Part shown: piece after piece, positions 2,944-33,249 of the stretch | How positions within the stretch are numbered: position 1 is the stretch's first letter | How the letters are laid out: each line of letters opens with the position of its first letter | From: Rosa chinensis | Taxonomy: Eukaryota; Streptophyta; Magnoliopsida; Rosales; Rosaceae | Assembly: GCF_002994745.2 (NCBI RefSeq) | Contig: NW_020126847.1 | Location: 1-64,000 of the forward strand | Direction of reading: 5' to 3' | DNA length: 64,000 nt | Program-made: the position numbers and the translations under genes | Notes under the pieces: model-generated | Databases searched by the model: none | Told to the model about the DNA's origin: nothing | The model's input: the letters and a program-made list of their open reading frames with translations, nothing else

Positions 2944-3396
2944 TTAATTAGGAAAGGTGGTAAGAGTCTTGTAGATCATATCATCTTCTGTGATTTCCCT
3001 TCCACAGAAATTGAGACGTGCCTTTAAGCGCAACATGTCCTTGTTGAAGTCATTGACCTTTTTATAGTCAAGCAAGCAGATTCCATTACACTGAACAGCC
3101 AGTCCTGGGAGCAAAGTATCGTGAATGTTCCCAAAACGTCCTTTAAGGGCATCCCATAGTGCTTTGGGTGTCTTCAACTGAAGGTACTCCCAGCGTAGGC
3201 TAGGATCAATATGTCGCCTCAGAAAAATTAAGGCATCTGCTTTCACCTTATTAGATAGTTCATCATCTTTGGGATCAGTAATGGTGGCAGCGTAGTCTTT
3301 TGCCACAAAGGCAGTTTCCATATCGGAAACCCAACGATGGTACTCAAGTCCTTCTGAGTCCAAGATGTCAAACTCAGGTCGAGTTGGATCAGCCAT
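2944..3396 (-). pseudogene. copia Gag (UBN2/gag-polypeptide family) N-terminal part
   Basis: A 150-codon open frame starting MADPTRPEFDILDSEGLEYH. It contains the family landmarks YHRWVSDMETAF, AKDYAATI, ALIFLRRHIDPSLRWEYLQ, LWDALKGRFGN and FNKDMLRLKARLNFCG, the usual sequence of the plant copia gag capsid-like domain. It ends at TLTTFPN where the family normally continues (P-E-Y-V...), so the stop is premature. The ATG at 3396 is the natural gag start, as the leader and LTR lie immediately upstream. This is the best preserved part of the element. Confidence 0.85.
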
Positions 3397-8032: not shown

Positions 8033-11000
8033 TTATACTTTTCCACCCTTTGCTTCATTATAAAGTTTATCAACCCGCTCCTGCAGATGATATAATTCAA
8101 CATACATATTTAGGATTAACTCATCAAAGTTCCAACCTTTTCTTATCCAAGTAGAAATCATACCTTGTAATATTTGAGTACTTGCGGTCTTTTCAGTTTG
8201 AAAATTGGGAGTCATGAGATCCCTCTCTATGTCAAAGGGGTTTGGTTCCAAATGAACTGCTTTTAACAACTCAAACCCTCGAAGCTGCAACATAAATGTA
8301 AGTCATGAGCACATATCATGAAACAGAGATGAGCACTACTTCCTGTTTCAACCCTTACTATGAGCTCATCCAAAATGACATCTGTTTTACCAGTGTATAT
8401 ACAATCATAAACTCGAGGAACCACACAAAACATAGTAGGCTTTAGTTCCTGAATGTCGTCCAGTAAAAACCTGACATCCTGCAAGTCCAACGGCAATCAC
8501 ATTGCAGATGTTGAAGTTGGTAAGTAAGGAAGAGATGTTGAAGTTGTTGAACCACACAAAACAGATGTTGAAGTTGGTAAGTAAGGAAGAGAATACCAAT
8601 CAAGTTGGTAAGTTGTAGATGCAATAGCTCTCTATTATTTGGTCAATATATGGGCCAACGGGAGAAACGGAAAAATATGAATTTAGATGCAATAGCTCTG
8701 GTCATATATATGGGCCAACGGGAGAAACGAAAAATATGAATCTTCCTCTGTACACTGTAGAATTTATTTTATGTCAGTAGTCAATATTATTGCCTTCAGG
8801 GAGATGTCAAATTGTTAATTGAGTTCAGTAACTCAACTTCATGAAAAATATAATCCTTAACCATCTATTGATCATAATTCAACAGAGTTACTTTGGAAAA
8901 AATATGAACTATAAAATAAATCTGCCAGTAAGCACCTTTCAGAGGATGACTACTCAAAATTGTATAAGTAACCTCAGTTTAATTAGTTCGTAGAAATCTG
9001 TAATTTGATGGCCAACCACAAAGCTTTCAGCATAATTTGATCTAATATGGATCCAACTTCTGTCAAAATGAAAGTATAAATTTCCCCTAGTTGAGGGTTA
9101 CGATACAACCCCAACTTTTATTAATCATGTCTTGGCAATAGCAACACATCTTGAAGATGTTACAATAAACTATAACTGCTCGCTAAATTGGATTGCATCC
9201 ACATGATTTAAACTTTTGTCAAGGCATAAATAGCATTTTAAACAGGCACCGCATATATGTATGGAAACAGAATAAGGATCGCTATTTTAATTTAAGAATG
9301 AGGAAATAATTTCATATTGATAATGCTACAAAATCCAAAACAAAAATGGCCTTTGTATTGGGCTTTCCATGACCAAAACATGTTCTCTGCAAGTTTATTT
9401 GCCTCGGACATATAAACGAGGTACATTTATGCTTCCAAAATGTGCAATAAACCAAACATAGGTACAGGACTTGGTGAAAATTAATCACCAGATTGCACCC
9501 CAAACAACTCATGACAAGTTACAGAAGTTATTCTGCCTTTTTTTTTTTTTAGGGAGGCAGAATAAGCATTAATTCAGAAACATCAAGATAGAATATATTA
9601 AAAAGCTAAAAAATGGAAGATGTTAACTGTGTGAATTTATTTATCATTCTATCTTTTAGGAAAAGTATATGGTCTGTTGACAATACTTCTGACATTAATG
9701 CTGCATTAGTAACGATTAAGCCTTTTGGTTCTCTAGTTGTTCCACTTCTACACATTATTGTGCAAACAGCAGTCCTCTGTTTTAGAGGTAGTTCATAATC
9801 TGAATTTCCCTGAGAAAATGAAAGATAATAGATGATTTTATATTGTTGAAAGTTAATGGCCAATCCTTTACTAAAAGCAAGAACTTGTATGAGAAAACAG
9901 TGTTGAGAAGTTACCAACTGAAAGAATTCCTCCCACGAAAAGCAAGATACCCCCAGTTCTTCTGCTTCCTTCTTTGAGTGCTAGAAACATTTGTGAACAT
10001 TTGTGAAGCTGACAATTGCTGAACAACGCAGATGTATACCTTAGATACAATCCAAACAACTTGGACCTCAAATTTGAAGTATTTAATGAAATAGTATATG
10101 ACCTACTTTTTAAAGGCGTAGAACAGTTTGGAAGGCATGGTATAATCTGCAGAAAGAACTACCATGTAAGGATCTTAGAAAGCAAGAAAAGGAGAGGGAA
10201 ATAAATTTTATATAAACGGAGTGCATATTAGGAAAGGAATAAGATTAACCATCAAGCACACAAGGCAAGTTGGACTTTGTAATTCTACCATGTTTACTAC
10301 AAAATTGGATTATGAATGTTCTAGCACCAAAATATAAAATATCAGTGGCTTCAAAGTTCAAACATATATCCAGTTATGATAATGAGATAAGAGTTTGGAA
10401 AATAACTCACATCAGGGATTTTGTTCTCTTGAACAAAAGCTATTGGAACTTCAGCATGGTTGATGATGAACTCAACTGCATTAGCACCTGCAACATAAAC
10501 CATGAAATGTCAATCAAATAAATTTGAAGGGAAACTGAAAATGCACCTTTCGATTTTCTCCCTAGATCCCCCACCACTTAATTTCCCAAAACTTCCCCTT
10601 ATACCTGTAGAATTCAAAAACTGTTTGGCATGTTTGCCGGTTGGCCACTGAACTTTTGTTGTGGCTAGCTAGCAAACACTTGGTACCGTTCAGTAGTTTC
10701 CAACAGAACTATTTAAGTTGTTGCGAAGAGGCTGATAGGCAACTACCAAGCATTCAGTAGCGAGCCACTGAACACAGCTTAATCCAGATTTATAAACAAC
10801 GGTGAAGTGGTAGAATTTGATAAAGGAAAAAGTTAAGACAAATTAGAATTTCCCTTCAATTAATCAAACTCGACCACCATCATTGAAGTTCACTATCTGC
10901 CACTGGAAAATGATAGCGCAAAGAATTCTTGAAAAAGAAAAGGAAGCATACCAAGGGTGTCATAAAGTGGAACATATGTAATGGCATGGCTGTTACACGC

Positions 11001-11308
11001 CTGTAACAAAAATAAATAATAAATAAATAAAATAAAATAAATAAAAAACAAACCAAACATAAGCATAAGGCTAAAAAGTCACAATTTTCTAGAAAGATTC
11101 AGTCCCCAATATCAGATTCAATTGTTCAATGTGACAAAAATGGGCTCTCAACAGTTAATATAGCATTTCTTCATTTAAGTGTCTTGCATAATATGCTCAA
11201 ATATGAAACAAAGAATCACAGTATTATTATTACCTCCATTGCAATAATCCATCCGGGGGCGGGGGCGGGGGTTGAATTTGAGCCATATAATATACCACAA
11301 CAATCTCC
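8033..11308 (-). pseudogene. long-chain acyl-CoA synthetase pseudogene, copy A
   Basis: LACS enzymes activate free fatty acids to acyl-CoA with ATP. Exons read from right to left: 11234-11308 (IYGSN...GWIIAME), 10952-11000 (ACNSHAITYVPLYDTLG), about 10412-10485 (GANAVEFIINHAEVPIAF), about 9920-9990 (EAEELGVSCFSWEEFFQ), about 9670-9809 with the AMP-binding P-loop, 8391-8478 (DVRFLLDDIQELKPTMFC), 8164-8284 (LRGFELLKAVHLEPNPF) and 8033-8080 (ERVDKLYNEAKGGKV stop). Splice sites are mostly kept. Defects: the P-loop reads RSGTTREPKG instead of TSGTTGEPKG; a one-base insertion shifts frame in the penultimate exon; the exons between DVRF and LRGF are deleted; a GC-rich insertion sits in the first exon; N-terminal exons are missing. 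Confidence 0.88.
11255..11271. repeat. GGGGGC hexanucleotide run inside a LACS exon
   Basis: gggggc repeated nearly three times, placed in the LACS copy A exon where copy C has plain cccaatgg. It replaces the P-E/Q of the conserved CPEW/FPQW motif by a short TPAPAPG-type run. Confidence 0.8.
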
Positions 11309-11983
11309 CTGCAAGGATCAAAACATATAAAAATCTAATCTTTTTTCCTTTTGTTTACAAATCTGCAGGCATAAGTGCATAACAAAACTTTAATGTGCAA
11401 TCTTATACACATAGCCTTAAACCTTCCGACAAACATATAATGACCACTTCTTTCAAATCGCAAGGACAATATAGTGACACGACAAAACAATGCACCTATC
11501 ACTTCTGCATTCACCGAAATCTATCTTGTATACTTTTTCAAACAGAAAAACATCAGCAGCAGAAAATTAACTAATAGCTCAAGCATACACGGCTGAGTCT
11601 ATTTAAGCATACCAGCCAAGGGGCCAAGAAGAAGCAGATTCTAATATGTCATACAGACTCCTACAGTTCAATGTCCCAAAAGGAAACTAAATCAGTGAAC
11701 TTGATACATATACTACTACCCGTGCTAGTGACAACAACCAGGAATAACGGTTCATAACACTACATTTAAACATTACTTGACCATATATATGCAAAATAAC
11801 ATAAATCCACTCCATTCTTCAGCATTTAGTGGTCTTCAGTCCCAGCAACTTTCATAATAAGATACTCAATCTCCCAGTTTCAACAAAAAACAAAGCATCA
11901 GAGACTGAGGACATCAGAGAAACTCATGCATTTTATAATTGATTCAACCAAATTGAAGCTACGACAGATGATGGAAAACAAAC

Positions 11984-12233
11984 CTCTTCTTCTAACCATG
12001 ATGTCTCTCTCTCCATCTTCTTTTGAAACATGTCAAGCCTCCGAATCTTAAAGAACACAGCTTTAGAAGGTCTCAGCCAATCATGCTGACAGGAGACAAG
12101 AAAGCTGTCGTGGCAGAAAGAGGATTCGTAGCCGTCACAAACTGTGGCCTGATGCAGTAAAAGAACACTTTCCCAGCCTTGTTCTTGTTCTACATTTTTG
12201 TAACGAGAGACACTTCCAGGCGATACATCTAAT
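11984..12233 (-). pseudogene. exon fragment of an unrecognised plant protein
   Basis: A 250-nt block reading, on the minus strand, LDVSPGSVSRYKNVEQEQGW, then a continuous frame through FLVSCQHDWLRPSKAVFFKI and RRLDMFQKKMERETSWLEEE. It is bounded by an acceptor-like ttacaag and a donor GAG|gtttgt. The long uninterrupted frame and clean borders argue for a true exon. I do not recognise the family. It may belong with the start-exon at 13976-14081, on the same strand about 1.7 kb upstream, which has a similar hydrophilic composition, but nothing in the sequence proves the link. Confidence 0.5.
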
Positions 12234-13975
12234 CTTGTAATAGTCTAATACAAATGCAGACACGAATAAACAGGTGAAAACAGCCAGAAACTATCTCCCT
12301 ACTTCTTCAAATAACCATACAGAACATTGTCACATTGGTACATTATCATTCTGTTTCTTTGCCTCTTGATAATTTAGCAAGTAATTAAACATTCTTTCCA
12401 TAGATGATAATATCATGGTGTTATGTAGAGTCAAAAACATATTGATTCAAAATTATTTGGAAACCAAAAGCAATCAATTACCCTGTAACATGAAAATACA
12501 TAATGATCAAGTATAGGAACCACATGTTTATAGCTTTGGAGTTTACTGCTGGCAATTGTGAGTAGCAAAAAGAACAATGTCTTTGCTTCATCTATATCTC
12601 TCAGCCTTATCAAGCACGTAAGTTATGAAGGTATATCGGCTTGGGATTCAATTTCAATTAGAACAGAGAGACTCAAAGCTTTGCATCAAAACTTTAAATG
12701 ATTACAGGCCTGGGATTTGGTGGGAAAAAGATGAAAGCCATGAGCTAAAAGACACATCGTTGGACTCAATATGGTTAGAAGAGAGGAGATATTACAAAGT
12801 CAAAGGGCACATTAGAGCTTAAATTAGAGAAAAGAGTTGGGTTACTTTTTCCATTGCATGCATAATTCTAATGCAAAGCTGCAGAACAAATAAAACTCTT
12901 GCAGATTAATCATTCTTCTGTTCAAGTGATACAGTGAAATATGCTTATTAACAAAAGTCACACAACTCTATTTCTATGCAATTTTCATTTTTGAGGTGTC
13001 GTTTTCGAAAGTGAAACTTTTTGGGACTAAATATTGCCTCTTACATGCATTGTAAGTTCTCAATATATTTTCAAATGTTTTATGTTCAGTGATGACGCCA
13101 ATTTGTTTTATTTCTGCACCTTAACTGTGAACTTAAAAAGAAAAATGGTCCAAAAGGAATAGCAAACATGCAGCTATAAGCATTCTGAAGCAAACATGCA
13201 ACTGCTGGAGATTGAGCAGAAATTATGTGCAAAGAAGATCACGAAAAAGAATAATGAGAAGAGGTATTGGGGTGTCATTGTTTTACTGTTTATGTGTTTG
13301 TGGATTGGTTTAGTAAGAGAAAGTAAGGTACTAAGGTGGAGAAGTTGAGCACATGTTAGGTGCATTGTTAGGTGAAAGGGAGGGAGGGTATGTATTAGTG
13401 CATAGTTAGGCGAAAGGGAGTCATTTTAAGGTGGAAAGACCATGTCATCGAGAACACAAGTGTAACTCTTTCTTGGCAAGTAAGAGGAATAGAGAGGTAG
13501 GGAGTTCTGCTTGGCAGGGCAGGAAAAATAGAAGGATATGTGAATGAAGTCAGTGAGGTATGATGGGAGAATGATGATTATGATTCAAGTGTATTGCTTA
13601 TTGTTTGGTGCAAACCTTACAGAAGAAGGCTTGTAATTCAAGTCCTCATAAAATAGGCAGTTACAGTACGACCAATTTCTGCCATACATTATTCTTTTAT
13701 GAGACCCTCTGATATAACATCTCAACAGAAAAGAAATTATGCCTAGCTACCATAAGATTTCAAAGTTAACTGTAAATTTCAGATAATCTCCATGTAAATC
13801 AATCAAAATCATATGCATGTGCTTAATATCGTATTTAGAAGTCCATATTAGAATGAAATGGGGCTGTGATTATTAAATCCACAATTAATACACATGACTA
13901 CATACAACTAAACATAACAAGAATTATGAAATAGAATCGGAAAACAAAAATTGGAAATCAAATAATCACCTTATA
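12234..13975. other. non-coding stretch, possibly intron
   Basis: No frame of interest on either strand. It lies between two minus-strand exon-like blocks and could be an intron of about 1.7 kb if they are one gene. Confidence 0.35.
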
Positions 13976-14081
13976 GAGAATGGATGCTTATCGGGTTGAG
14001 CCTGACCATGATTTGAAGCTAGTTGTGGCTGTAGCGGCGGAGGTTGCAAATCCCTAGGTGGGTTTTTCTGCTGAGATAGCA
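13976..14081 (-). pseudogene. start exon of an unrecognised proline/glutamine-rich plant protein
   Basis: Minus-strand ATG at 14081 begins MLSQQKNPPRDLQPPPLQPQ and runs through NHGQAQPDKHPFSIR to a consensus donor (AAG|gtgatt) at 13976. A P/Q-rich start followed by HPFSIR is seen in uncharacterised plant proteins that continue REYV..., an impression from memory and not checked. There is no second exon immediately downstream with that continuation. Whether it is a live first exon or a captured fragment cannot be told from sequence alone. Confidence 0.45.
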
Positions 14082-14469
14082 TAGTACGAAGATTGTACTG
14101 GAAGATTGTACAACGAAAACGGGGAAGGACCCTTTAAAAGGAAAGCTGGTATTCTAAGCTGGTTAGAGACAAAATTACTCTGACTATGAGTGTGCGAATA
14201 AAACAGCAATGAAATCAGTGAAAAGGGTTAGGGAAAGCTTCACGTAGTCCAGATCCCAGATCACCAAGGTGTGCCCTTCTCAATCATCTCCTGGGTGTTT
14301 ACCATGTAGCCCACGAAAAGGGAAGCAGAACCACCAAAGATGGGAGAAGCAAATTGCAACCAGAGAAGGATGGACACGCCTGTAGAGAGCAAGCCCTCAT
14401 GGTTATGGATCACATTGCTCCAAACACCAGACAAATCGATGTTTTACATGACCAAATCATCCACCCTCT

Positions 14470-14492
14470 CCCCCCCCCCCCCCCCCCCCCCC
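14470..14492. repeat. poly-C run of 23
   Basis: An unbroken run of 23 C on the plus strand, followed by aaaacccc. Runs this long are rare in plant DNA, and its exact length may be uncertain from sequencing. Confidence 0.85.
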
Positions 14493-14753
14493 AAAACCCC
14501 TCTCTTCTTTGGTTGATGGTGAAGAAGATCTTGCTGATATGTCACCTATCTCAGTCAAGTGTAATATCACAGACTCATGTAATCCCCTTTGCGGCCAAGA
14601 CTTCAACCCTCAGTCCCATATTTAGCTAATGCATCTTTGAATTTCTTGACCAATAAAACAACGAATCCAATTAGCATAATTCGAATCATAAATACCCACT
14701 GATCCTTTTATTGAATATTACAAACCAACATCAACAGGAATTGCAATACTTAC

Positions 14754-14918
14754 AGCGGCAATGGTGCAGCCGAAGCTACATACTCGCCCTTCTGCACCTC
14801 TATAAAACCTAAAGAATGGTATCACATGAATGTGGAGACCATGGCACATAGCGTTGAGCTCTTCAAAGTTAACCGAAAGAAAAATTGCATCTGGAATCTG
14901 TTCAGCCAGCTGACAAAT
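14754..14918 (-). pseudogene. exon fragment of an ACHT-type (atypical Cys/His-rich) thioredoxin
   Basis: Flanked by ttcag at the acceptor and GCT|gtaagt at the donor, the exon encodes ICQLAEQIPDAIFLSV, then NFEELNAMCHGLHIHV and PFFRFYRGAEGRVCSF. This is the C-terminal half of the chloroplast thioredoxin-like ACHT family, including the cis-Pro strand (here V-I-P-F-F-R-F) and the G-A-E/Q-G-R loop. The redox-active Cys pair would lie in the preceding exon, which is absent. Upstream and downstream on the same strand are pieces of unrelated genes, so this is a captured exon and not a thioredoxin gene. Confidence 0.85.
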
Positions 14919-15114
14919 CTGAACAAAATCATAGTACTATTGGTAAACAGATATTCCAAAATGCTCCAAGCTAAAATTAGATGTGCTATAATTTCAAAAG
15001 GGGATTCAGTAGAAGCAAAACCGGACCATTTAATAGCAGCTGTATAAAAAAATAGTGTCAAAATAACCAAGGATCATGATAATTAAAGTGATAAAGTGAT
15101 ATACCTGGGGTACG

Positions 15115-15315
15115 TATTCACCACCACCTCCAAAATTCTCCACACTCTTCCAGTCATATTTTTCATGCATGACACCTGTTTTCTTGTAGGCTTTATAATT
15201 GGTTCTGATCCACCTTACAGCATGTCTTCTCACACTACTTGCTTCTTTTGATCCAGACCTTGCCAGGCCTTCAGCTATCATGTGTTGGATTGGAGCCCAA
15301 TCATTTGGAAAGTCC
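15115..15315 (-). pseudogene. exon fragment of trehalase (glycoside hydrolase 37)
   Basis: A 201-nt block between ttag|GGAC and CAG|gtatat. It encodes DFPNDWAPIQHMIAEGLARS, WIRTNYKAYKKTGVMHEKYD and FGGGGEYVPQ. These are trehalase signature 2 (normally QWDxPxxWxP) and the glycine-rich GGGGEY box near the C-terminus. Trehalase splits trehalose into two glucoses in the apoplast. Two short stretches (VRRHAVRW for a normal AEDIAVRW-like text, and YDWKSVENF for a YDVEKCGEF-like text) look like paired compensating frameshifts. The catalytic domain start and last exon are missing. Confidence 0.88.
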
Positions 15316-15664
15316 CTAATATTACAATTTCCATTAGGCCACGTAAAAGTTCAAAGTAGGTAGCTGATATTCTGAAAACTTGAGAAGCCAATACGACAGG
15401 TCTTAAAAAATTCCTGAACTACTAAAAGCAGTTAATATCGTATTGCAAATGACTCGATACCCAAAAATAAAATATGAAAATACCTTTGGCATGGAGAGCT
15501 CTACAAATTTGATGGCTTGCCCTGCGAAATTGCAACTGCCTTATAATTCGAAAGAGCAATACTTTTTCCCAAATAAGAAATTCATCAAACTTTGACATCC
15601 AGGACTTTGTGTTGTATGTGAATATCTGATACAGGTGTTTGGCAGCAATACAGTAGGCCAAGAC

Positions 15665-15795
15665 CTGTATAAATGCAGGAGGTTTAGACATTTTTTCAAA
15701 GGCCTTGGAGTCCCACTTTATTGAAAACTCCAATGCTATGTCAACCAAACCTTCTTCACCAATGTGGGAGGCTTTGAAGCTATGTTCTCAGCAAA
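15665..15795 (-). pseudogene. IST1-like (Vps4 regulator) exon fragment, downstream piece
   Basis: The minus strand gives AENIASKPPT, then after one indel DIALEFSIKWDSKAFEKMSK and PPAFIQ before a gtcttgg donor. This is the end of the IST1/DUF292 domain of plant IST1-like proteins, which act with ESCRT-III and Vps4 at multivesicular bodies. An indel at about 15725-15735 puts a TAG in frame. It continues directly from the exon at 15880-16021, so two consecutive exons and their intron were kept. Confidence 0.7.
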
Positions 15796-15879
15796 CTATC
15801 ATTTAGGAATTCAGTTAGTCAGTTCAAAGCAGTTAGGGATTCATAAAATTCCATCAAGTGCAGGAAAATAAATAATTAC

Positions 15880-16021
15880 CTTTTGATCCACATAATAATC
15901 CAGAGTTCACTTAACTCTCTTGAAATAGTGGCCTAATGTCACAGAACTCTGGTAAATCAAAAAATCTAGCTGCAGTAACCATTAGTGATGCAACAGCTTC
16001 CTCACATTCCCAGGGCATTCC
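15880..16021 (-). pseudogene. IST1-like (Vps4 regulator) exon fragment, upstream piece
   Basis: After the acceptor ttgcag the exon reads GMPWE, then CEEAVASLMVTAARFFDLPE, then FCDIRPLF. This is the conserved helix of the IST1 domain (usual wording C-x-E-A-V-A-S-L-I-F-A-A-x-R-x-x-D-L-P-E-L). A frameshift follows the LFQE block; the other frame resumes with LDYYVDQK at the donor. The rest of the gene is absent on both sides. It is the 5'-most of the three gene pieces packed into 1.3 kb on this strand. Confidence 0.75.
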
Positions 16022-16439
16022 CTGCAATGACAATAAGGGAGGAAAATGACATTGTGATGAGTTAACCTGTCCTTCTTTTAACTCATAATGAAAGAAAGGT
16101 TTCAAACAAAAAAACATTCATTTCATTTAGCAGGAACTCAAACCACCTATCTGATGTACATTATTACATGATTCCGTCAGGTCAACAGAAAAACTGTAGT
16201 AATGACAGAATCATCTAAAGTTTCAAATATTCATGGTGTGAATATCTCTACACCAGAACCTAATCAAACTTCGTCAAATGAGTCTTTGCATCTGGTACAA
16301 ATTTACATGGCATCTACTAAAATCAATCAACCATGTGAACCTGACATTTGGAGAATCTAGTAAACTGAAGTAATGCTATACTGCATCAGCAGCATAATCT
16401 GACACTAAGATTAGCAATCCAGGAAACTAAACTAATTAA

Positions 16440-17130
16440 GCGAAAGTAAGGGTTTTTATTCTTTCTCACCAACATTTCTAAGCCCATAAGCGAATGTATA
16501 TATTAGCAGTTCAATCCGAAACCAAAAGAGCAGCTGCTGATTAATAGAGTAGCAGCATACCTTTGGATGAGGAAATAAATTCAGAAAACGATGCTATATA
16601 ATCAGAAAATAGAAAGACCTTGAAAGTGGCTATCCGACCAGAAAACGTCTACAAGTTCATCGATGAGTTTAGTGAAGTAGATTTAATGCACCAGATCAAG
16701 CTTCTAAATTAAAAATTTAATATTCCTTTCACTGATGCATTTTTGCATTTATTAGTAACACGGAATTGGGCATGGTAAACTAGTTCAACTCTATCCACAC
16801 ATATGAAGAATGCCAACAAGAGTTGATATTACAAACCAATTTTGAAAACTCCAAAGATATCAAAGAAAGGGAGGATTTGAAAATGTAAACCTGTATTCAT
16901 CACACTGGTCCGTAGACAATGCTATGCTGCATCAGTAATAATTACAGCTTTCGTTCTCCAGTTGTGCATCAGTATATAATTCTTTGCAGTCAGTCCTCTG
17001 TTGGGACGATAATTGTCCCAGAAGCCCTGCAATAGCATTATTGTGCAGATGTCAGTCGTCCGTTTTGCTACAATGTCAGTTATGATCTCTGAAATGAGGA
17101 AATTTTCACAAAAGGAAACGATACGGTCGA
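16440..17130 (-). pseudogene. LACS-derived fragment, copy B
   Basis: About 16560-17130 matches 29780-30430 in LACS copy D, including the phrases cagaaaatagaaagaccttg and atgctgcatcagtaataattac. It holds mostly intron sequence, plus a highly decayed AMP-binding exon around 16915-17010 that still resembles ISTNAAML. It shows that DNA of the LACS block also lies between the captured exons and the TNL pseudogene. Confidence 0.6.
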
Positions 17131-17225: not shown

Positions 17226-17701
17226 TATGGAGGACTTAGAGTCCTCATGTTGATAAATAATGACTCGACACGTAAAAGGGGCAATGGACGCATATAACAC
17301 ATATCAAGGAAGGGAACATAGTGCAGCCACACATGATCCGACTCTGCTGAATCAACACTTTCCGGTTCTGAGACCCTCACTTCATTGATGTGAATATAGA
17401 CCTGAAAACTAGTCCAAGGATCTTGCAGCCTTTGATCAACAGCCACACAGAGAGCCAATCCTGTGTTGTCCCATTTGAAATTTGCAAGTGTTTCAATACA
17501 AAATTCAAACCGTCGATGCCCCTTGAAATCCATTTGACAGCTGAACCACTTTGGAACCCCGCTTCTTGGAACTGGAAATCTAATTGTGAATTGGAATTGC
17601 TGAGAAGATAGGAGTCGAGAGAAGAGATCAGCGTCCACCTCATCATCATCCTCGTTTGCCATCCCAACCAAATTTTGACAGAGTCTCCAGCAATTAGTCA
17701 A
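17226..17701 (-). pseudogene. C-JID (post-LRR jelly-roll/Ig-like) domain of the TNL
   Basis: An open stretch holding FPVPRSGVPKWFSCQMDFKG, RRFEFCIETLANFKWDNTGL, VYIHINEVRVSEPE and SDHVWLHYVPF. The P-x-S-x-x-P-K-W-F and H-V-W-L/H motifs define the C-terminal domain found only in TNLs. In characterised TNLs this domain helps recognise the effector. This block is uninterrupted to the stop at 17226, though the frame differs from the LRR block upstream. Confidence 0.9.
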
Positions 17702-18129
17702 GTCATCTCCTTAATCATTTGTGATTCTTTACGCTCCAAAATGTTTGACAACTTCGAAATTCTTTCCAATGATACGCAATCCTCACATTCAACAGCTAAT
17801 ACTTGGTGGAAGCTCTGGAATTTCTACGAGCCTCCTGCAGCCTCTCAAATTGAGTTTCCCCAAGTTGACAAATTTGTTGATGATGCATTCGGGAAGAATA
17901 ACAATGGGGCTTTCTGATATATCAAGTGAATATAAAGTGGATGCACAATCAAGGGACGCGAGGAAATCAATATTAGATAAATTGCATCCACCCGCATGGA
18001 ATCGGGTCTAAACAAGGAAGCGCCAGATTGAATTCAGTATCTGACTCTGGCTCCGATGAAGAGTCACGGTTGTCATGTGAAACCTTTGAGTAAGTTGGAA
18101 GCACTTCAGACTCCACCTTATTTGGGATC

Positions 18130-18815
18130 TTACCAGTTTTGGGCATCGGACAAATAAACCTCCCTTAACTTCTGCAATTCATAAATGCCGCAGGGTAGAT
18201 CTGTGAGGTTTCCACATCCGCCTAACGTCAAGTATTCAAGGTTAATTAGATATCCAATGGATGAAGGCAATGCTTTGATGCCAGTGTTGTATAGATACAA
18301 GGATGTCATGCATTTCATCTCTCCCTCAATTTCAGGGAAACTCTCCAGCCTTGTGCAGTAGTTGAGATTAATGGATCGGAGGGATATCCAGTTGACTTCT
18401 CCTGGTAGCCTCACAAGGTTAGAGCATTTATGAAGATCCAGTTCAACAAGCTTTTTGAGGGATCCAACTGAAGGGTGAACCTCCGCTAAACTTGTACAAT
18501 AGCTTAGATCCAGTAACTCTAGGTTTGGGCTTCCAGACAGGTCTGGGCTTTGTGCTAGGAGTTCACAGTCACTCAAACTTAAGGATTTGAGGGATTTGCA
18601 GTTGACTTTTTGAGGAAGCGTCACAAGGTTAGAGCAACGGTGTAGATCCAGTTCAACAAGCTTTTGGAGGGATCCTATCGAAGGATGAATCTTCTTTAAA
18701 CTTGTACACCAACTTAGATCCAGGAACTCTAAGTTTGGGCTTCCAGACAGGTCTGGGCTTTGTACTAGGAATTTACATCTCTCCAAATTTAAGGATTTCA
18801 GATTTTCCATACTCT
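18130..18815 (-). pseudogene. TNL leucine-rich repeat exon
   Basis: After the acceptor tatgacag it reads MENLKSLNLERCKFLVQSPD and continues through about nine 23-24-residue LRRs (LEFLDLSWCTSLKKIHPSIG, LVELDLHRCSNLV, SLRSINLNYCTRLESFPEIE). Two halves are close repeats of each other (QSPDLSGSPNLE occurs at the start of both), so part of the array arose by internal duplication of about 200 bp. It ends at LSDAQNW with a stop at 18130; the next LRRs continue in another frame (GCNLSNIDFLASL, ILPECIINKFVNLGKLNLRG, IPELPPSI) at about 17790-18000. Confidence 0.9.
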
Positions 18816-21079
18816 GTCATACCAAAGTAGAAAAAAAAATCAAATGGAAAATTAGTAAGGTGTAAAGATTTTAACAAAGTAAACTCTGGAAACTCTATAA
18901 ATACCTTGGATCCTTCTCCAAAACTTGAGATGCGGCTGCAAGGCATACTAAATTGAACCAGATTCTTCATATTAAAATCGGAGGGCAAAGATTGTAGCGG
19001 ACAGCTAGACCAATCAAATAACCGCAACTGATTCGGATAATAATCAACCTTTCCACAAAACTGTCCATTGATGTTTATAAAAATTTTAAGATTTTTCATC
19101 TTTTTGAAGCATTTAGGATTCAGGCGTATCTCATCTTCTTTGGGCATCTTTACCATCATGCCTTCAATTTTACTTGTGCCCTAGTATGCAAAACGCAATC
19201 TTATTAGCAAACTGAGTACTTATGTAATAAAATGCAAGTCTTTTGAGTTTTATTCTTTCTTTAAGAATTCAACAGAAAATCATATAATATATCTTACCTG
19301 GATATTGGTTGTCGAATTGAAACAAACTACACACATAGAGAATCAACCTGACCTGACTCCATGTATATATGTAAATCTGAGCATATAGGAACTACTTACC
19401 GTGTTTTCTGTAGAACCTCTGCAAATCCTTGTGATGCCACAATCTGCTTCGCTCACCGGGCTCTGTAGACTCTGCTGAACTATATATTTTCCCATCTCAT
19501 TTAGCAAATCATGCATGCAAATATGACCATATCCATCAACATTTATGAGCGCCTTTCTTCAAGAACTTCAATACTATGCTGGGGTTGTTGCGATCGCAAC
19601 CTTCTAATATTGTATCACATTTTTTGTATTCCAACCTCTGAAGAAACAAGCAATGTCGAGGAAAACTTTTTTCACTATTTCTTCAGTCCATCATAACTGA
19701 CTTTGAGATATCTCGAATGTCTCTGGAAGATTTCTTTTATAACCATCTAACATAGCATGCCATTCATGTATAGGTCTACCACGTAGATGTGAACCCAAAC
19801 ATACCAAAGGCTAACGGAAGGCATGAGCATATCTAACAATTGTGCTAATCCAGAGTTTCTCATCGTCATCATGATTTTCTTTTTCTTGAAGGCATTTAAC
19901 CTGAAGAGCTCACAAGCTTCGCTATGATCTAGTTCCCTGGCCTTGTATATAGGATTGACTTCGTGAACAGTTAACAAACGCTTATCTCTGTTGTTATGAT
20001 AATTCTGCTACCACGACCAAACCAATCTGGTGCTCTGGCTAATGTGTCTAACTGGTTCGATTTATTCACATCATCAAGAATTAACAGAATCCTTTTATTT
20101 CTCACCTTTGACGCAACAAATTGATTCTTTATCGACATTGATTACTATCAGTTCTTTGCCCCCTAGAATCTCTGAAAGAATAATGTTTTGTAGGTTGACT
20201 AAACCTCATGCTGCTCTGAACCTCCTCTAACATTTTCCAAAAAGCAGTGACATTCAAACTTATGGGCAATTGTATTGTAAACCAGCTTTAGCAATTGTTG
20301 TCTTCCCTATTCCACCAATTCCCCATATCCCTACCATGCGTACATCACTTCCCCAACATCTAACATTTCAAGCATTTCTTGTACCCGAGAGTGTATCCCA
20401 ACTGGACACTTTGCCACATCCAATAGGAAGGTTCTTTTAGTTGTGCAGAAACCTCTTCAACAATTTTATCAATAAATTCATATTCATATTGATGCCTGTC
20501 ATGTCAAAATCAAATGAAACATTTAATAAAAACTAAAACGGTAAAACCTTGCTACTTCGAAAAGAGCATAGTATTGTCATAATAATCACACACCAATAAA
20601 GAACAGACAAATTTGCTATAAGTAAGATTAGGTGCGTGATATACCCCTGCGAGAAAGGCCACCCAGACAAATCTGCTGCTTCTGAAAGAGCTGCTCTCCA
20701 ACTTTCACCTTGTCCATATCACCTTCGAGTCCGCGTTCATGCTCTGCAAGTGCCTCACCAATTTACCTCTTTGTGTCTTACATCGGCGGGATTTACTTGT
20801 AAAAGATTGCGACCATTTGGTTCTTACGATTTTTTACATTCAAGGATATGAACCAGTTTTAAACACCACTTTGAGGCTGCATAATTTTCGGAGAACACAA
20901 CGAGAGACAGCTTTGATTCTTTAATTGCTTGGAGAAGTGCTTCTGATATTTCTTCTCCTCTTGGAAGATCATCATCATCTATGAAAGTGTTGATTCCCCT
21001 TTGAACCAAAGACCTGTGCAAATGACCTGTGAAACCGTAGCGAGTATCCTCGCCTCTGAAACTCAGAAACCATCGTGTG

Positions 21080-22285: not shown

Positions 22286-25200
22286 TTATACCTTTCCACC
22301 CTTTGCTTCACTATAAAGTTTTCAACTCGGTCCTGCAGATGATGTAATTCAACATACATATTTAGGATTAACTTATCAAAGTTCCAACCTTTTCTTATCC
22401 AAGTAGAAAATCATACCTTGTAATATTGAGTAATTGCGGTCTTTTCAGGTTGAAGTTGGAGTCATGAGATCCCTCTCTATGTCAAAGGGTTTGGTTCCAA
22501 ATGAACTGCTTTTAACAACTCAAACCCTCGAAGCTGCAATAAAAATGTCTTGTAAGTCAGATGAATAAACTTAAGCAACATGGCATGAAACAGGGATGGA
22601 GCTCATCCAAAATGTATTTTCTTGCCTTCATGTTTGACACATGATTTGTAGTCATCAGTCAAATGATGCTCAGCTGCCAATCCTCCAAGGCCTTTCTGTC
22701 AGGAACAACCACAGCAACAAGAAATGACTCGAAGCTGTTCCCATGAACCCAAATCTGCCAACCAGATGAAAGTTAAGATGTTAAGATATCCGTCTGCAAC
22801 TTCAGAAAACACGAAAGAAGGGTGGAGGACACTGCACAAAATTCAAATGTAGCACAAAGACGAACACAATCTCATTTATTGATGAAATAAAGGTAAGTCC
22901 TGTCATTCATCATACAAGTAGAATACAGAAGTTAGCGACATACCATGTGATAAGGGGGCATTGCAAGTATTTGCTTTCAATGCTTTCCACAGCAACATAT
23001 TCACCTTGAGACAGTTTAAATATGTTCTTTTTCCTGTCTAAACTTTCATTGCTCCATTAGACTGCCATTCTCCAATATCACCTGTGATCCATCCACTCAA
23101 AATTAATCATCAACAAAAATTTTGAAGGCTCCATCTTGAAAAGAAACCAAAAGATTGAGCATCAACCAAGAAAGTACTTCATTTCTAGTTTTGTAGACAT
23201 TTACCTGTATGGAACCACCCATCAATAAGGACTTCTTCAGTGAGATCTTGTCGCTTGTGGTAACCAGAAAACAAGGTTTTCCCTCTTAGGCAAATCTCTC
23301 CACATGGCACACTAGAAAGTGCATCATATCCCAGTTCTGGGACCGACTCAAGCCGTGCTTCAATAGTTGTCAAGGGGACACCCACAGTTCCAATCATAGG
23401 ATAAACATTGCCAATGGACGTAAAACAGCCACCACAGCTTTCAGTAAGTCCTAACTGATGAACTCTAGTACTCTTCGTTTCATATATATCTGCTTCTGAT
23501 GTGTTGTGGTAGCTGATTTAGAAAAATAAGGTTATTTGAATGAGTACAAAAGCATCCATACTTGACATCTCAAAGGCCAAACACATATACCACGAATTAA
23601 GTGAGAAAGCACAGTGAGCTGAATACTTATGCTCGTATAATTTCCTGAATCTTCACTATGATTTAACTGATTATGTGTTATATTCATTATGATATGCAGT
23701 CAACCATACCATATCCTTGTGATAAAGTGCTGCAGCTGGTGACCCTAAAAATTCCTCCACATGCCTGGGCAAAGGCGCAGCACCAGACAACATTATACGA
23801 ACTCTTCCTCCTAATGCTTGTTTTATCTACCGCAAGTAACACAGTTTGTTAGAATGTACGCATAAAATAGAAGTAATGCATTGTTCGAATGTAAAACCAG
23901 ATATTTCAAGAATGAAAAGGTGAAGGATAGAATGACTGACCTTGTTAAATACAAGCTTCTCCAGTTTTGCCAACTTGCTGCCATACAAATATTAATTAGT
24001 TTATGCCTTTATGGTAGGAATACAAATGCAAACAAAAAAGGAGGTCTTAGTGAGACGTATAGTTATATGCATACCGGAAAAGGGTCTTCCTCAGCACACC
24101 ATCAGATGAAACTTTACTAGCAATACCTTCGGAAACAATATTTAAGACAAATATTAACAACAAAGAAATTCACGGACATAAATGTATACAGTTCATATTG
24201 ATGAATCTGTTTTACCAGTGTATATACGATCATACACTCGAGGACCCACAAAACATAGTAGGCTTTAGTTCCTGAAGGTCGTCCAGTAAAAACCTGACAT
24301 CCTGCAAGTAACGGCAATCACATTGGACAGATGTTGAAATTGGTAAGTAAAGAAGAGAATACCAATCAAGTTTTGATAAGGAAACAGAAAAAAAAGAATG
24401 TAGCAAGAATGACACATATACTTATGCCTTGCCAGAAGCCTATTGAAGATCCCTTGTAGATGCAATAGCTCTCGATTATTTGGTCATATTATAGGTGCCA
24501 ACGGGAGAAACGAAAAATTTGAATCTTCTTCTGTACCTATGTAATACAATTCTATTTTATGTCAGTAGTCAATATTATTGCCATCAGGGAAATGTCAAAT
24601 TGTTAATTGAGTTCAGTAACTAAACTTTTATAAAAGAAATATAATCCTTAACCATCTATTGGTAATACTTCAATGGAGTTACTTTGGAAAAATATGAACT
24701 ATAAAATAAATCTGCAAATAAGCACCTTTCAGAGGATGACTTTCCTCAAAATTGTATTAGTTCCCTTAGTTTAATTAGTTGGTAGAAAATCTGTAATTTG
24801 ATGGCCAACCACAAAGCTTTAAGCATAATTTGATCTAATATGGATCCAACTTCTGTCAAAATAAAATTTCCCTCCTGGTTGAGGGTTACGGTACAACCCC
24901 CAACTTTATGAATCATGTTGGCATAGCAACACATCTTGAAGATGTAACAATAAACTATACCTGCTCCCTAAATTGGATTGCATCTACAGGATTAAATTTT
25001 AGTCTGCATAAATAGCATTTAAACAAGCACTGCATATATGTATGGAAACAGAATAAGGATCGTAATTTTCATTTAATAATCAGGAAATAATTTCATTTTG
25101 ATAATGCTACAAAATCCAAAACAACAATGGCCTTGTTAATGGCGTTTTTGTGACAAAACTACTAAATCTCCATGACCAAAACATGTTCTCTGCAAGTTTA

Positions 25201-27506
25201 TTGCCTCTGACATATAAATGAGGTAGAATTATGCTTCAAAACTGTGCAATAGACCAAACATAGGTACAGGACCTGGTGAAAATTAATCACCAGATTGCAT
25301 CCCAAACAACGCGTGCCAAGTTACAGGAGCTTTTTGCCTCTTGTTGTTGTTTTTTTTTTTTTTTTTTTGAAGAGGCAGAATAAGCATTAATTCAGAAACG
25401 TCAATATGTTAAAAAGATGTTTAACTGTGTTAAGGTATTTACCACTCTATCTGTTACGAAACTATGGTCTGCTGACAATACTTCTGACATTAATGCTGCA
25501 TTGCTAACGATTACACCTTTTGGTTCTCCAGTCGTTCCACTTGTATACATTATTGTGCAAACAGCGGTCCTCTGTTTTGGAGGTAGTTCACAATCTGAAT
25601 TTCCCTGAGAAAATGAAAGATAATATATGATTTTATATTGTTAAAAGTTAATGGCCATCCTTTACTGAAAACAAGAACTTAACTGAGAAAACAGTGTTGA
25701 GAAGTTCCCAACTGAAAGAATTCCTCCACGAAAAGCAAGATACCCCCAGTTCTTCTGCTTCCTTCTTTTGAGTGCTAGAAACATTTTGAAGCTGACAATT
25801 GCTGAACAACGCAGATGTATACCTTAGATACAATCCTAACAACTTGGCCCTTAAATTGGAAGTATTTAAGGAATAGTATATGACCTACTTTTTTAAATGC
25901 ATAGAACAGTTTGAGGATTGATATAATCTGCAGAAAAAATTACCATGTAAGGATCTCAGAAAGCAGGAAAAGGACACGCGAAACAAATTTTATATAAATG
26001 GAGTGGCATATTAGGAAAGGAACTAAGATTAACATCAAGTATACAAGGCAAGTTGTCTTTGTATTTATATCATGTTTACACAACTAAATTGGATCATGAA
26101 TGTTCTAAGTACCAAATATTAGACATCTGCGGCTTCAAAGTTCAAACAAATATCTAGTTATGAACTTATGATAATAACATATAGTTTGGAAAATAACTTA
26201 CAGCAGGGATTTTGTTCTCTTGAACAAAAGCTATTGAAACTTCAGCACGGTTATGATGAACTCAACTGCATTAGCACCTGCAACAGAAACCATGAAATGT
26301 CAATCAAATAAATTCAAGGGAAACTGAAAATGCACCTTCCAATTTCTCCCTAGACCCCCACAACTTTTTCCCCAAAACTTCCCCTTATACATGTAGAATT
26401 CAAAAAACTGTTTGGCATGTTTGGTGGTGGCTACTAAAGTTGTTGTGGCTAGCTAGCAAACACTTGTTACTGCTCAGTAGTTTCCGATAGACAACTATCA
26501 AGCATTCAGCAGCCAGCCGCTGAACACAGCTCAATCCAGATTACAAACGATGGTGAAGTGGCAGATTTTGAAAAGGAAAAAGTTAACACAATTTAGGATT
26601 TCCCTTCAGTTAATCAAACTCGAGCACATTATTGAAGTTCACTATCTGCCACTGGAAAATTTTACAATGCACTAAGAATTCTAGAAAAAGAAAAGGAAGC
26701 ATACCGAGGGTGTCATAAAGTGGAACATATGTAATGGCATGGCTGTCACAGGCCTGTAAAATTAAAAAAACACACATAAACACACAAGTATAAGGCTAAA
26801 AAGTCGCAATCTTTCTAGTAAGATTCAGTCCCCAATATCAGATTCAGTTGTTCAATCCTTCCACCAGTCACGAAAATGTGCTCCCAGCAGTCAACATAGC
26901 ATTTCTTCATTCAAGTCTCTTACATAATATCCACATAGATGAAAAGGAAAACATGACAGTATTAATATTACCTCCATTGCAATAATCCATTGGGGGAAAT
27001 TTGATCCATATATAGTTATATACCACAAGTATCTCCCGGCAAACATTGAAACAATATAAAATAAAATAAAACAATATCTTTCCATTTCACAGTTACTATT
27101 CTCACTACCACTACCATCAACTCTATAACACATACACCTTTATTACTAAGAACACATTTTCTTCCATAAAAATGTTATACGCACACACATACATAAACAC
27201 ATAAGTGGAGAGTTACAGGATTGACAACATGGCTTCTGATGGATGAACCCACACGAATGGCTGCATCATACACCTCTTGATATGGAGTCCACACATATGG
27301 ACCCACCTGTCATTTTGCATTAAACAAAATTGGCATTAGTATTTCCTAGTAGCAAAATTGAGCTCCTGGTTTCAATGGGTTGCTGCCATTGCTCAAATGG
27401 AAATGGAAGGTACCTTCTTCTTGTTGACTTGGCCTTGACCAAGCATTTGACCGCTTGGGTTCCTCTTAACAGTCAATGCCAGTGAAAACAGAGTTTCAGC
27501 CATCAT
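22286..27506 (-). pseudogene. long-chain acyl-CoA synthetase pseudogene, copy C (nearly full length)
   Basis: The most complete LACS copy. Exons from the 5' side: ATG at 27503 or 27506 (SLALTVKRNPSGQMLGQGQV), about 27219-27307 (VGPYVWTPYQEVYDAAIRVG), about 26990-27070 (IYGSNFPQWIIAME), about 26706-26755 (CDSHAITYVPLYDTLG), about 26205-26280, about 25700-25775 (EAEELGVSCFSW), about 25450-25606 with a perfect AMP-binding P-loop TSGTTGEPKG, 24216-24301 (DVRFLLDDLQELKPTMFC), 23710-23830 (RIMLSGAAPLPRHVEEFLGS), 23205-23400 (RLESVPELGYDALSSVPCGE, RGKTLFSGYHKRQDL), about 22940-23085, 22617-22757 (IWVHGNSFESFLVAVVVPDR), about 22412-22536 and 22286-22332. Single-base deletions break the frame in at least five exons. 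Introns keep GT-AG borders. Confidence 0.9.
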
Positions 27507-27687: not shown

Positions 27688-28684
27688 TTTTTCGTTTACA
27701 CTTTTTTCAATTTTTACCCATTCTTCTTTTGAGGCCATTTGACCTGTTTTCTGATATTAACTTCTTCCAAGTTCCAATTAACAGACTGAAAAATGAATAA
27801 AAATATGATATGCTATGATTCTGCTTTTTTTTTTTTTTGGCTGTGGTTCTAGTTTGTATAAGCTCAGTAGCATTCACAATACATGTGACACTTGATTTAA
27901 CGTACATGATCAATCCCATAACTGCCACAGTGTCTGATACCTGAGAAACTGCCGCGGTGACTCCAAAAACCCCTCCAGTAACTCCAACAGCCCACCTTTA
28001 GTTAGATCTTGCAGCTTGTGATAACCAGAAAACAAGGTTTTTCCTCTCAAGGAAATCTCTCCACATGGCACACTAGAAATTGCTTCATATCCCAGTTCTG
28101 GGACCAACTCAAGCCATGCTTCAATAGTTGTTGGGGGGAACCAACCACAGCTTTCAGTAAGGTCAGCACGATTTAAGAAACTGATGAAATGTAGATATCT
28201 TCTTTTCATATATATCTGCTTCTGTGTTGTGGTAGCTGATTTAGAAAATTAAGGTCATTTGAATGACCACAAAAGCATTCATACTCGACATCTCATACGC
28301 CAAACACATTATCATGAATTAAGGTGAGAAAGCACGTTGAGTCAAATACTCAACCTTGTTTAATTTCCTCAATCTTCACTATGATTTAAACTGATTCAAG
28401 TATATATTAATTATGATATGCAGTCAATGTATACACAATCCTAACAACTTGCACCTCAAACATCAAGTATTCAAAGAAATAGCTTATCATCTACTTTTTA
28501 AATATATAGAACAGTTTAGTAGGCAAGATAGAATCTGTACAAAGAATACCACGTGAATACCACGTGATAATAGAAAACAAGAAAAGGAGAAGGAAATAAC
28601 TTTTATAAAAACGGAAGTTGTGTAAATCAACAAGGCACCTCAATGTTCTACATAAGTTACTTACCTCTACATCAGCTCAATCAA

Positions 28685-29745: not shown

Positions 29746-29943
29746 GATCGATCAACACAATTCTGAACTTTTTACTTTTGAATAAGGAAATAATTTCAGA
29801 TAACAATACTATAAACTCAGAAAATAGAAAGACCTTGAAAGATCGATCAACACAATCATGATCTGAATTTTTTAGTTTTGAATGAGGGGGAAGTAATTTC
29901 AGATAACAATGCTATAAACTCAGAAAATAGAAAGACCTTGAAA
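29746..29943. repeat. tandem duplication of about 98 bp in LACS copy D
   Basis: gatcgatcaacacaat through agaaagaccttgaaa is present twice, 29746-29840 and 29841-29943. Confidence 0.8.
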
Positions 29944-32111
29944 GAATTTAGTGAAATATGACTAGTGCAATAGATCAAACTTCGAAAACAAATTTAATAT
30001 CGCTTTCCATAATGCAATTTTTCATGTATCAGTTACATGGAACCAGGCTTGGTAAACTAGTTCAACTACTATATCCACACAAATGGAGAATGCCAAACAG
30101 AGTTGATATTAATTATTACAAACTATTTTGAAACTCCAAAGTTATAAAAAAAAGGGAGAGTCTAAAATGTAACCTGTATTCGTCACATTTGGTCCATAGA
30201 CAATGCTTTACCAACATTGCTGCATTAGTACTAATTACAGCTTTCCAATCTCCAGATGTGCATCAGTATATATTACTTATGCAGTCGGTCACTGTTTGGG
30301 ACAATAACTTTCCAGTGGTCCTGCAATAGCATTATTGTTCAGATGTCAGTCCTCTATTTTGCTACAAATGTTTGTTATTATCTCTGAAACTACTGAAGCA
30401 AAAATGAGAAAAATTTCACAAAAGAAAACGATACCAATAAACACAAATTCATATTGAGGCAACTACAGCTGTATAACCAACTATTGGTAATACTTCAACG
30501 AAGTTACTTTGGAAAAAAATATAAACTATAAAATAAATCTGCTTTCACAGGAAGACTTGACTCAAAATTGTATTAGTACCCTTAGTTTAATTAGTTGGTA
30601 GAAAATCTGTAATTTGATGGCCAACCACAAAGATTCCAGCATAATTTGATCTAATATGGGGTCCAATCTCTGCCAAAATGAAAGTATAAATCTCCCCCAG
30701 TTGAGGGTCAGTACAAACCCCAACTTTAATCATAATGACACAGTTAACACCACTAACATCACCAAATAGAAAGCAACGAATTGGTTTAACAAGCTTGTTG
30801 CAAACTGAAATTTTTTAATCCTAGACAAAACCGTCTTGGAGAATGACGTCCTCACATGTTGTCTTGGCAAAAACAACAAATCTTGAAGATGTTACAATTG
30901 ACTATAACTGCTCACTAAATTGGGTTGCATCCACGTGATTTAAATTTTTGTCTTGGCAAAACTAGCATTTTAAACAGGCAGAGCATACATGTATGAAACA
31001 GATTAAGGATTAAATATTTCATTTGAGAATGAGGAACTAATTTCATATTGATAGTGCTACAAAAAAGAAAATAGTTGTATTGACCTTTTCAGTAACAAAA
31101 CTACTAAATCTCCATGACCAAACTGTTCTCTGCTAGTTTATTTAAAATGAGGTACATCTATGATTTAAAACTGTCCCATAGACCAAACATAGGTACAGGA
31201 CCTGGTGAAATCCATCACCAGATTGCACCCAAAACAACTTATGCCAAGTTACAGGATCTATTCTGCGACAATTTTTTTTTTTCCCCTTCTGAAGAGGCAG
31301 AGTAAGCACTAATTCGGAAACATGAAGATAGAATATCTTAAAAAGCTAGAATATTGAAATTTCTAACTGTGTTAAGTTGTTTACCACACTGTCTGTAAGG
31401 AAAAGTATATGGTCTGTTGACAACATGAAAAGGAGAGGGGAATAAATTTTATATAAACAGAGTGCCATAATAGGAAGAAACCAAGATAACAATCAAAGGG
31501 TCAAAATATACAAGGCAAGTTGGTCTTTGCATTTATATCATGTTTAGTACAACAAAATTGGATTATGAAGGTTCTAGTACCGAAATATAATTCATCAGTG
31601 GCTTCAAAAATATATCGAGTTACGATAATGACATAATAGTTTGGAAAATAACTCACAGCAGGGATTTTGTTCTCTTGAACAAAAGCTATTGAAACTTCAG
31701 CGTGGTTGATGATGAACTCAACTGCATTAGCACCTGCAACATAAGCAAGAAAAATCGGTCAAATAAATTTCACGATAAACTCAAAATGCAGAGTCCAATA
31801 TTCTCCCTGGACCCACCACAAGTTTAACTCCTATAGAATCGAAACACTGTTTGGCAAGTTTGGTCGCTACTGAACTTTCTTTGTGGCTGGCTTTCAAACA
31901 CATGGTACTGTTCAGTGGTTTCCAAACTTAAGTTGTTGCCGAGAGTTTGATTTACAAAAGATGGTGAATTGGTATATTTTGGAAAGGTAAAAGTCAAGAC
32001 CATTTAGAATTGCCTTCATTCACACAGAAGCAAGCACCATCACTTAAGTTCAGTAACTGTAACTGGAAAGGAATACATGCATGATGCACTGAGAATTATT
32101 GAAAAAGAAAA

Positions 32112-32830
32112 GGACCAAAGCACCAATACACAATTCCTTATCCTTCCTGTGTTCTTTTAAAACACCAAAGCCAAAAAATCCAGTCCCAACCTCCAAATTT
32201 CCTTTCCCAAAGCACCAATTCAAACAAACCAACAAGTGCAAGAATTTAAAAGAAGCAGAGATAAAAAAAAAACAAGAGTGAAGAAGTGCTTTGATTACCA
32301 GACCGCGATGAAATGCGAAGTGCTTTCCCTTCAATGGCACGTGCAAAGAAAAAACAAGAACCAAGCTTTGAGTGTGATTCGCCTTTTTTTGCTATTGAAG
32401 AACAATAACGCCGCACACCACTTGTTCGATAAAATGCAGCAGCAAATTCGGACACCCAGAGTGAACAAGGACGCTCCTAAGCGGCAAATACTCCTGAGAG
32501 GATCTTTTCAGTTTTGGGCCTCCTACAATCTTTTCTCGGGTGTCCTTGCCAAATTTGGGCTTTTTCGGCGGCTGTCGATTTTAAAATCTGGTGCCCAGAA
32601 AGAAAAAGACTTTGCATGTCTCTGCGATTTAGATAAGAAAATTGAGACTTGGAGTTCACTCGGTACATTGAGGGTTTCCGCATCAAATTTGGGACTGAGA
32701 AACTTTAGGGATCAAGGATCATGACTCACAAGGAAACAGAAAAGAAGCCCATTTTAAAATTTGGGCCTATTTGAAGAGTTCAGCTAAGCATCACGTTAAG
32801 GGTGTCCAAATCAAAATACCCGAACTTTAG
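32112..32830 (-). other. foreign insertion in LACS copy D with unrecognised coding-like frames
   Basis: LACS homology stops after gaaaaagaaaagga (about 32112) and resumes near 32840. The insert holds minus-strand frames such as SEFAAAFYRTSGVRRYCSSI with GKALRISSRSGNQSTSS (32246-32455), and MYRVNSKSQFSYLNRRDMQ (within 32477-32686). The first, rich in Arg and Ser and poor in acids, looks like an organelle presequence. I do not recognise the source gene. No target-site duplication was found by eye. Confidence 0.45.
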
Positions 32831-33249
32831 TTTGTACAGTATTACCTCAGAGATACAGTATTACCTCCATTGCAATAAGACACTGGTGGACATTTGATTT
32901 ATATATACCATAACGATGTCTCTGCAAACATTAAAACATATCAAAATCTAAGCATTTGCCTTATGACACATGTGAATATGTGCGTGTGTAGAGGCCATTT
33001 CCATCAAGGAATCTCTTTTTTTGGCCATTTTGAGGGATTCCTTGTCGGACTGCTTTTTGATAGCATTTCGGCATCTCGACCGTTTAGTTTTTTTTGTCCT
33101 AATGTATATCTCACTTCTACTCTTTCACAGTTAGTATTTGTAAACTATGATACTGTTACTACAGTAAGTCAACACACGAAATCATAGATACAAACACACA
33201 AAGTATATGAATATATATAATTGCAGCAACATGTGTAGGTGAAATGTTC

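Follow-up and report, generated by a model that had tools for sequence, protein, structure and literature searches.

The first 64,000 nucleotides of contig NW_020126847.1 of Rosa chinensis, referred to here as the window, contain a mosaic of decayed gene fragments. On the minus strand, from position 16021 to about 14396, pieces of three unrelated gene families lie within 1.6 kb: IST1, trehalase, and a thioredoxin that we take to be of the ACHT type, the label used in the original prediction. All three pieces carry frameshifts, two of them (IST1 and ACHT) also contain stop codons, and their similarity to the named families is far above chance. The locus is a DNA-level pseudogene mosaic, neither a single host gene nor a working chimera. 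Such mosaics of gene fragments are familiar from plants, and this one adds a further example. The original prediction had placed IST1, trehalase and ACHT pieces in this order on the minus strand within 1.3 kb, and matches obtained with Pfam, phmmer and tblastn bear this out for 16021-14754. The pieces are as follows:

15880..16021, minus strand: IST1 exon A, a pseudogenic piece with frameshifts and one stop, bordered by AG before and GT after it; phmmer E=1.3e-28 jointly with exon B.
15665..15795, minus strand: IST1 exon B, pseudogenic (one frameshift), ending at residues PAFIQ, then a weak GTCTTG donor or a breakpoint.
15105..15315, minus strand: trehalase exon, 71 of ~590 residues, with partly compensating frameshifts and no stop in one frame.
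14754..14918, minus strand: ACHT internal exon, which follows the active-site exon, with splice borders; tblastn 5e-38 jointly with the last exon, PDB 1.2e-14.
14396..14650, minus strand: ACHT last exon, truncated ~13 codons before the native stop, with its acceptor lost; tblastn 8.1e-11 to protein P0011.

The two IST1 exons are separated by an 84-bp intron (15879-15796) and together represent ~95 of ~615 residues. By phmmer, they matched IST1 proteins of Argentina anserina (E=1.3e-28) and Rosa rugosa (E=1.6e-28); just four matches were returned, the other two coming from Fragaria x ananassa and Prunus dulcis. An earlier protein search that reached only shorter relatives gave no IST1 match, since the IST1 relatives (612-643 residues) exceed its reach, and a search of PDB gave none either. 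For the Pfam searches, stop-masked frames and joined-exon translations were used. The family Ist1 was found with E=0.0023 in the stop-masked frame and with E=9.6e-06 when both exons were joined and read through, the score of the joined exons (26.1 bits) lying under the curated cut-off of 33.6. With three frameshifts and one stop, the piece is identical to the Fragaria protein at 73 of 89 residues, to those of Argentina and Rosa at 72 and to that of Prunus at 68. Lesion counts here and below are approximate, as we set the frameshift penalties ourselves, and all identities refer to exon residues only, frameshifts being permitted in the alignments. Over the same stretch, IST1 proteins from the rose-subfamily relatives agree with each other at 88-89 of 95 residues, so the lower identity of the piece indicates that it has drifted or decayed.

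The trehalase piece lies within an open frame at 15033-15350. It matched the trehalase family of Pfam with E=3.1e-17 in the stop-masked frame, a trehalase in PDB with E=3.3e-17 and, by tblastn, a Fragaria protein with E=3.2e-30 (82% over 71 residues). If four frameshifts are allowed, 62 of 67 residues agree with Fragaria and 59 of 67 with Carya, without any stop; Fragaria x ananassa ranked first among the relatives, followed by other dicots. This piece looks less changed than those of IST1 and ACHT, which may reflect a different age or merely a slower gene.

For the thioredoxin, the original prediction had described a single exon. The internal exon was correctly recognized, but tblastn revealed that the last exon at ~14650-14396 had been missed, together with an intron of ~105 bp kept between the two. 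The match of the last exon spans 14650-14363, with similarity fading at ~14396, and a 23-base homopolymer (14470-14492) lies inside it; the piece ends at an arbitrary breakpoint within the exon. Its tblastn matches were led by Rosa chinensis (P0011, E=5e-38), the protein P0013 and Argentina anserina, with 102, 103 and 96 identical residues out of 126, respectively, at the cost of one or two stops and three frameshifts, one of which sits at an intron border. The best PDB match was the chloroplastic thioredoxin-like 2-1 (E=1.2e-14), and the internal exon gave a weak match to Pfam Thioredoxin (E=0.036, under the cut-off). Related thioredoxins bear the database name “thioredoxin-like 1-2, chloroplastic”; P0011 carries another, unfitting name. 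The preceding exon, which bears the CGGC motif of P0011, is absent from the piece. At 15505-15485 on the minus strand, the residues CRALHAK stand before a GT, compared with CRALHPK where the active-site exon of ACHT ends; this score is reached by 1 of 200 shuffles, and the residues before CRALHAK, in the candidate exon end within 15663-15485, do not match ACHT. This spot is a possible remnant of the preceding ACHT exon, in which case the trehalase exon would lie inside an ACHT intron.

GT or AG is kept at eight of the nine splice borders examined. The borders had been predicted to be intact, which holds except for the lost acceptor of the ACHT last exon and the weak GTCTTG donor of IST1 exon B. 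Introns, thought to be kept with each piece, are indeed present in the IST1 and ACHT pieces but not in that of trehalase, a single exon. Their retention in two of the three pieces indicates copying at the DNA level, and the introns of IST1 and ACHT rule out retrocopies. The top-ranked relatives of all three pieces are rose-family proteins (Fragaria, Rosa, Argentina).

The pieces derive from unrelated genes, as had been proposed: three families are represented, and in each of two relatives IST1 and the donor compared with it are on different contigs. In Argentina anserina, IST1 (P0121) sits on a contig of 24.7 Mb and ACHT (P0028) on one of 28.9 Mb. The Fragaria x ananassa genes for trehalase (P0001) and IST1 (P0123) are likewise on separate contigs, of 26.6 and 25.2 Mb, which is weaker evidence as this species is octoploid. 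These comparisons, of IST1 with ACHT in one relative and with trehalase in the other, show for relatives only that IST1 is unlinked to each of the other two donors. Among the 120 protein matches listed of 129, no domain list joins two of the families. The possibility that all exons belong to one real host gene, raised already in the original prediction, is ruled out by the three unrelated families, by the separate location of IST1 in two relatives and by this absence of a combined domain list. An assembly artefact, or ordinary neighboring genes that decayed in place, is quite unlikely: each gene is represented only by a small internal piece (71 of ~590 residues for trehalase, ~95 of ~615 for IST1), and in two relatives IST1 is unlinked to the other compared donor. 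In addition, the pieces are decayed, whereas a chimeric assembly usually joins intact sequence.

As the best explanation, to which we give about half of our confidence, we propose an old, decayed mosaic that was copied as DNA from at least three host genes and collected by a non-autonomous, Helitron-like DNA transposon whose ends have been lost. Such an element would have picked up the pieces stepwise, probably one per transposition, and would have landed in a rearranged cluster between a copy of an acyl-CoA synthetase gene and a resistance gene of the TNL type (both described below), where its ends may later have decayed or been cut away. Unrelated donors and copying at the DNA level together with introns fit capture by a transposon. 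In maize, a single Helitron can carry multiple pieces whose donors lie on different chromosomes, and one group averages three fragments per element (range 0-12), according to an excerpt of PMC3288121.

Several results weigh against this explanation. A strict scan for Helitron 3′ ends (hairpin plus CTRR) found no minus-strand site in 9-18.5 kb; it gave 14 sites in the whole window, and its one plus-strand site in 9-18.5 kb lies inside the trehalase exon. For ATCTMTAYTA, a 5′ motif of plant Helitrons, no minus-strand match with up to two mismatches was found in 16022-16557, the expected edge; one plus-strand match with two mismatches occurs at 16245. As a 5′ end, TC preceded by A occurs too often to be informative. 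When we scanned for terminal inverted repeats with target-site duplications, one candidate appeared, which does not exceed the 0-2 seen in ten control pairings, and all CACTA-type pairs were filtered out. Inverted repeats in 9-18.5 kb reach at most 30 nt, at 70%, and self-BLAST (E up to 1e-8) detected no direct repeat of at least 60 bp, as sought for long terminal repeats, touching 11345-16557. Shared orientation, put forward originally as the hallmark of Helitrons, is no hallmark by itself and is weak evidence, as three pieces fall on the same strand by chance in one case out of four, and the neighboring acyl-CoA synthetase and TNL genes share this strand. Finally, the many breakpoints in the surrounding cluster favor a patchwork made by repair.

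The original prediction had pointed to Helitron, Pack-MULE or CACTA cargo, and this membership could not be confirmed, with end scans empty on the minus strand or at control level. It had itself seen no convincing Helitron ends. In a relaxed scan, the best minus-strand site, 12658, ranks 15th and 16263 on the plus strand 21st of 508 sites in the window, neither standing out. At 12658, an AT-rich hairpin is followed by CTAA ten bases on; as an element end, this site would exclude the putative exon at 11984 (see below). A canonical Helitron has TC and CTRR termini, carries a GC-rich hairpin whose distance from the 3′ end is 10-15 nt, and inserts at an AT site, as stated in an excerpt of PMC6591975. 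In the accessible part of PMC2575219, a strong hairpin is absent in 16 of 35 maize elements, and a weak hairpin does not exclude a Helitron.

We infer that a Helitron-like element is a likelier carrier than one with terminal inverted repeats. It is unlikely that the mosaic is cargo of a transposon of the latter type (Pack-MULE, CACTA or other Pack-TYPE elements) with decayed inverted repeats, even though Pack-TYPE elements carry intron-bearing gene fragments and give chimeric transcripts (PMC13317346, in part) and one candidate pair at 12739-16087 has 14-base ends with 12 matching positions and an 8-bp duplication with one mismatch. This pair is at control level, and neither a CACTA-type pair nor a long inverted repeat accompanies it. 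The scans for inverted repeats, for direct repeats and for terminal inverted repeats with target-site duplications also failed to identify the mosaic as cargo of a MULE with long terminal inverted repeats or of an element with long terminal repeats; decayed ends of terminal inverted repeats are possible.

The flanks of the mosaic bear on a third explanation and are arranged as follows:

8684..11332, minus strand: left flank, an acyl-CoA synthetase pseudogene with another copy at 24457-27061 and a fragmented one at 30474-32957.
11345..16557, no strand assigned: the stretch holding the mosaic, with no repeat elsewhere in the window (self-BLAST, and alignments at its limits compared with shuffles).
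16558..17124, no strand assigned: right flank, recurring at 29773-30434; the TNL gene starts beyond.

The mosaic stretch thus has a truncated acyl-CoA synthetase pseudogene on one side and the TNL gene on the other, both minus-strand, and the cluster around it is heavily rearranged and full of breakpoints. Over its 5.2 kb, self-BLAST with cut-offs of E 1e-8 and 60 bp found no repeat elsewhere in the window. At the right limit, the alignment scored 91, whereas shuffles averaged 73 and reached up to 108, and at the left limit none of four comparisons exceeded its own shuffle maximum. An alignment that includes the known repeat 16558-16626 scored 142 versus 83 in shuffles, a value that cannot tell an extension from that repeat.

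In such a setting, double-strand breaks in the unstable resistance-gene cluster could have been filled with copies of unlinked genes without any transposon, a possible but less likely course of events. Pieces of the acyl-CoA synthetase gene and of the TNL flank are shuffled around the mosaic, no transposon ends were found, the breakpoint within the ACHT exon is arbitrary, and gene-bearing fillers are discussed for wheat in an excerpt of PMC3445842. On the other hand, the maize fillers treated in the accessible part of PMC2686159 are short (1-131 bp) and said to derive from nearby sequence, whereas at least three longer, unlinked pieces are present here. We judge transposon capture to be more probable than a repair patchwork.

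The acyl-CoA synthetase gene is represented by three decayed copies or part-copies on the minus strand and by shuffled pieces, such as 28435-28615 matching 10047-10220. For AMP-binding, the copy at 8684-11332 gave a weak match (E=0.004), the one at 23-26 kb a clear one. Just upstream of one exon, at a place that lies within an intron by position, the copies lose their similarity. The segment 27200-27510, judged by eye, presumably holds the first exons of the second copy; self-BLAST and alignments found no match to it in the first copy (8684-11332). The TNL gene (17228-21069, minus strand) contains TIR, WHD_ROQ1 and LRR domains and an NB-ARC match under the cut-off, and its LRR part carries a 225-bp repeat (18368-18801).

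Beyond the three gene pieces, two further exon-like blocks had been predicted on the same strand, both recognized from the sequence only:

13970..14082, minus strand: putative exon, a block with ATG and then GT.
11984..12148, minus strand: putative exon, a block between AG and GT.

Their GT/AG-like borders or ATG are present, but protein and domain searches gave no significant match for either of them (Pfam, NCBIfam and two protein-database searches reaching relatives of ~133-423 and ~388-1235 residues). A PDB search with the 11984-12148 block returned one match (E=0.052) with no stretch significant by itself. Open frames are no rarity in this DNA, as 54 stop-to-stop frames of at least 95 residues occur in the window. 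Either block may belong to a further gene as an exon or be due to chance.

Most likely, the mosaic has no function now, and at most it yields a non-coding spliced transcript. Of trehalase only a single small exon is present, and ACHT is represented without its active-site exon. A chimeric spliced transcript, considered possible in the original prediction, could not encode IST1 since the IST1 part is frameshifted. The trehalase and ACHT exons match in phase where they would be joined: counted from its first full codon, the trehalase exon runs for 210 nt, and ACHT continues with a full codon. Both exons are stop-free in the frames needed for a fusion, so that a short trehalase-thioredoxin chimeric frame is possible in principle. 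We consider it very improbable that a rose-family transposon family gathering pieces stepwise has made a spliced trehalase-thioredoxin chimera that would be translated or feed small RNAs against the donor genes. The mosaic can be mistaken by annotators for a trehalase, IST1 or thioredoxin gene.

Elsewhere in the window, tandem duplications were observed at 50240-53416 (plus strand; ~1.6 kb, 95% identity, with a 69% relative at 403-1353) and at 38250-38836 (~294 bp, 97% identity). Retrotransposon remnants on the minus strand comprise zf-RVT at 35857-36297, RVT_2 at 49490-49861 and a copia-type gag at 2947-3396, the last one under the cut-off. The segment 27614-27690 (plus strand) resembles a nuclear tRNA-Ile(AAU) by eye; ARAGORN found no tRNA in the window, and the likeness may reflect a degenerate copy or chance. 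An Rfam search of 9-18.5 kb gave nothing, and the sole plus-strand Pfam match in 10.5-17.5 kb had E=0.92.

Taken together, the mosaic is a further case of a plant genome copying bits of unrelated genes to new places, which alone changes nothing known. Should the host genome contain other copies that share their ends, these would reveal the responsible transposon in the rose family. Among known systems, filler DNA and gene movement by repair in plants (excerpts of PMC2686159 and PMC3445842) resemble the mosaic in that unrelated sequences meet at arbitrary breakpoints within a duplicated and unstable cluster, but the described maize fillers are short and local, whereas the mosaic has several longer, unlinked pieces. 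Pack-MULE and Pack-TYPE elements, as far as described in the accessible part of PMC13317346, likewise carry host fragments as DNA that are usually pseudogenic and possibly give chimeric transcripts; the mosaic differs by having no terminal inverted repeat or target-site duplication above control level. In contrast to the non-autonomous Helitrons of maize, neither TC and hairpin-CTRR ends nor an insertion site between A and T could be demonstrated for the mosaic. It shares with these elements, according to excerpts of PMC3288121 and PMC2575219, the presence of several unrelated, intron-bearing fragments within a few kilobases, which in maize were taken stepwise from different chromosomes.

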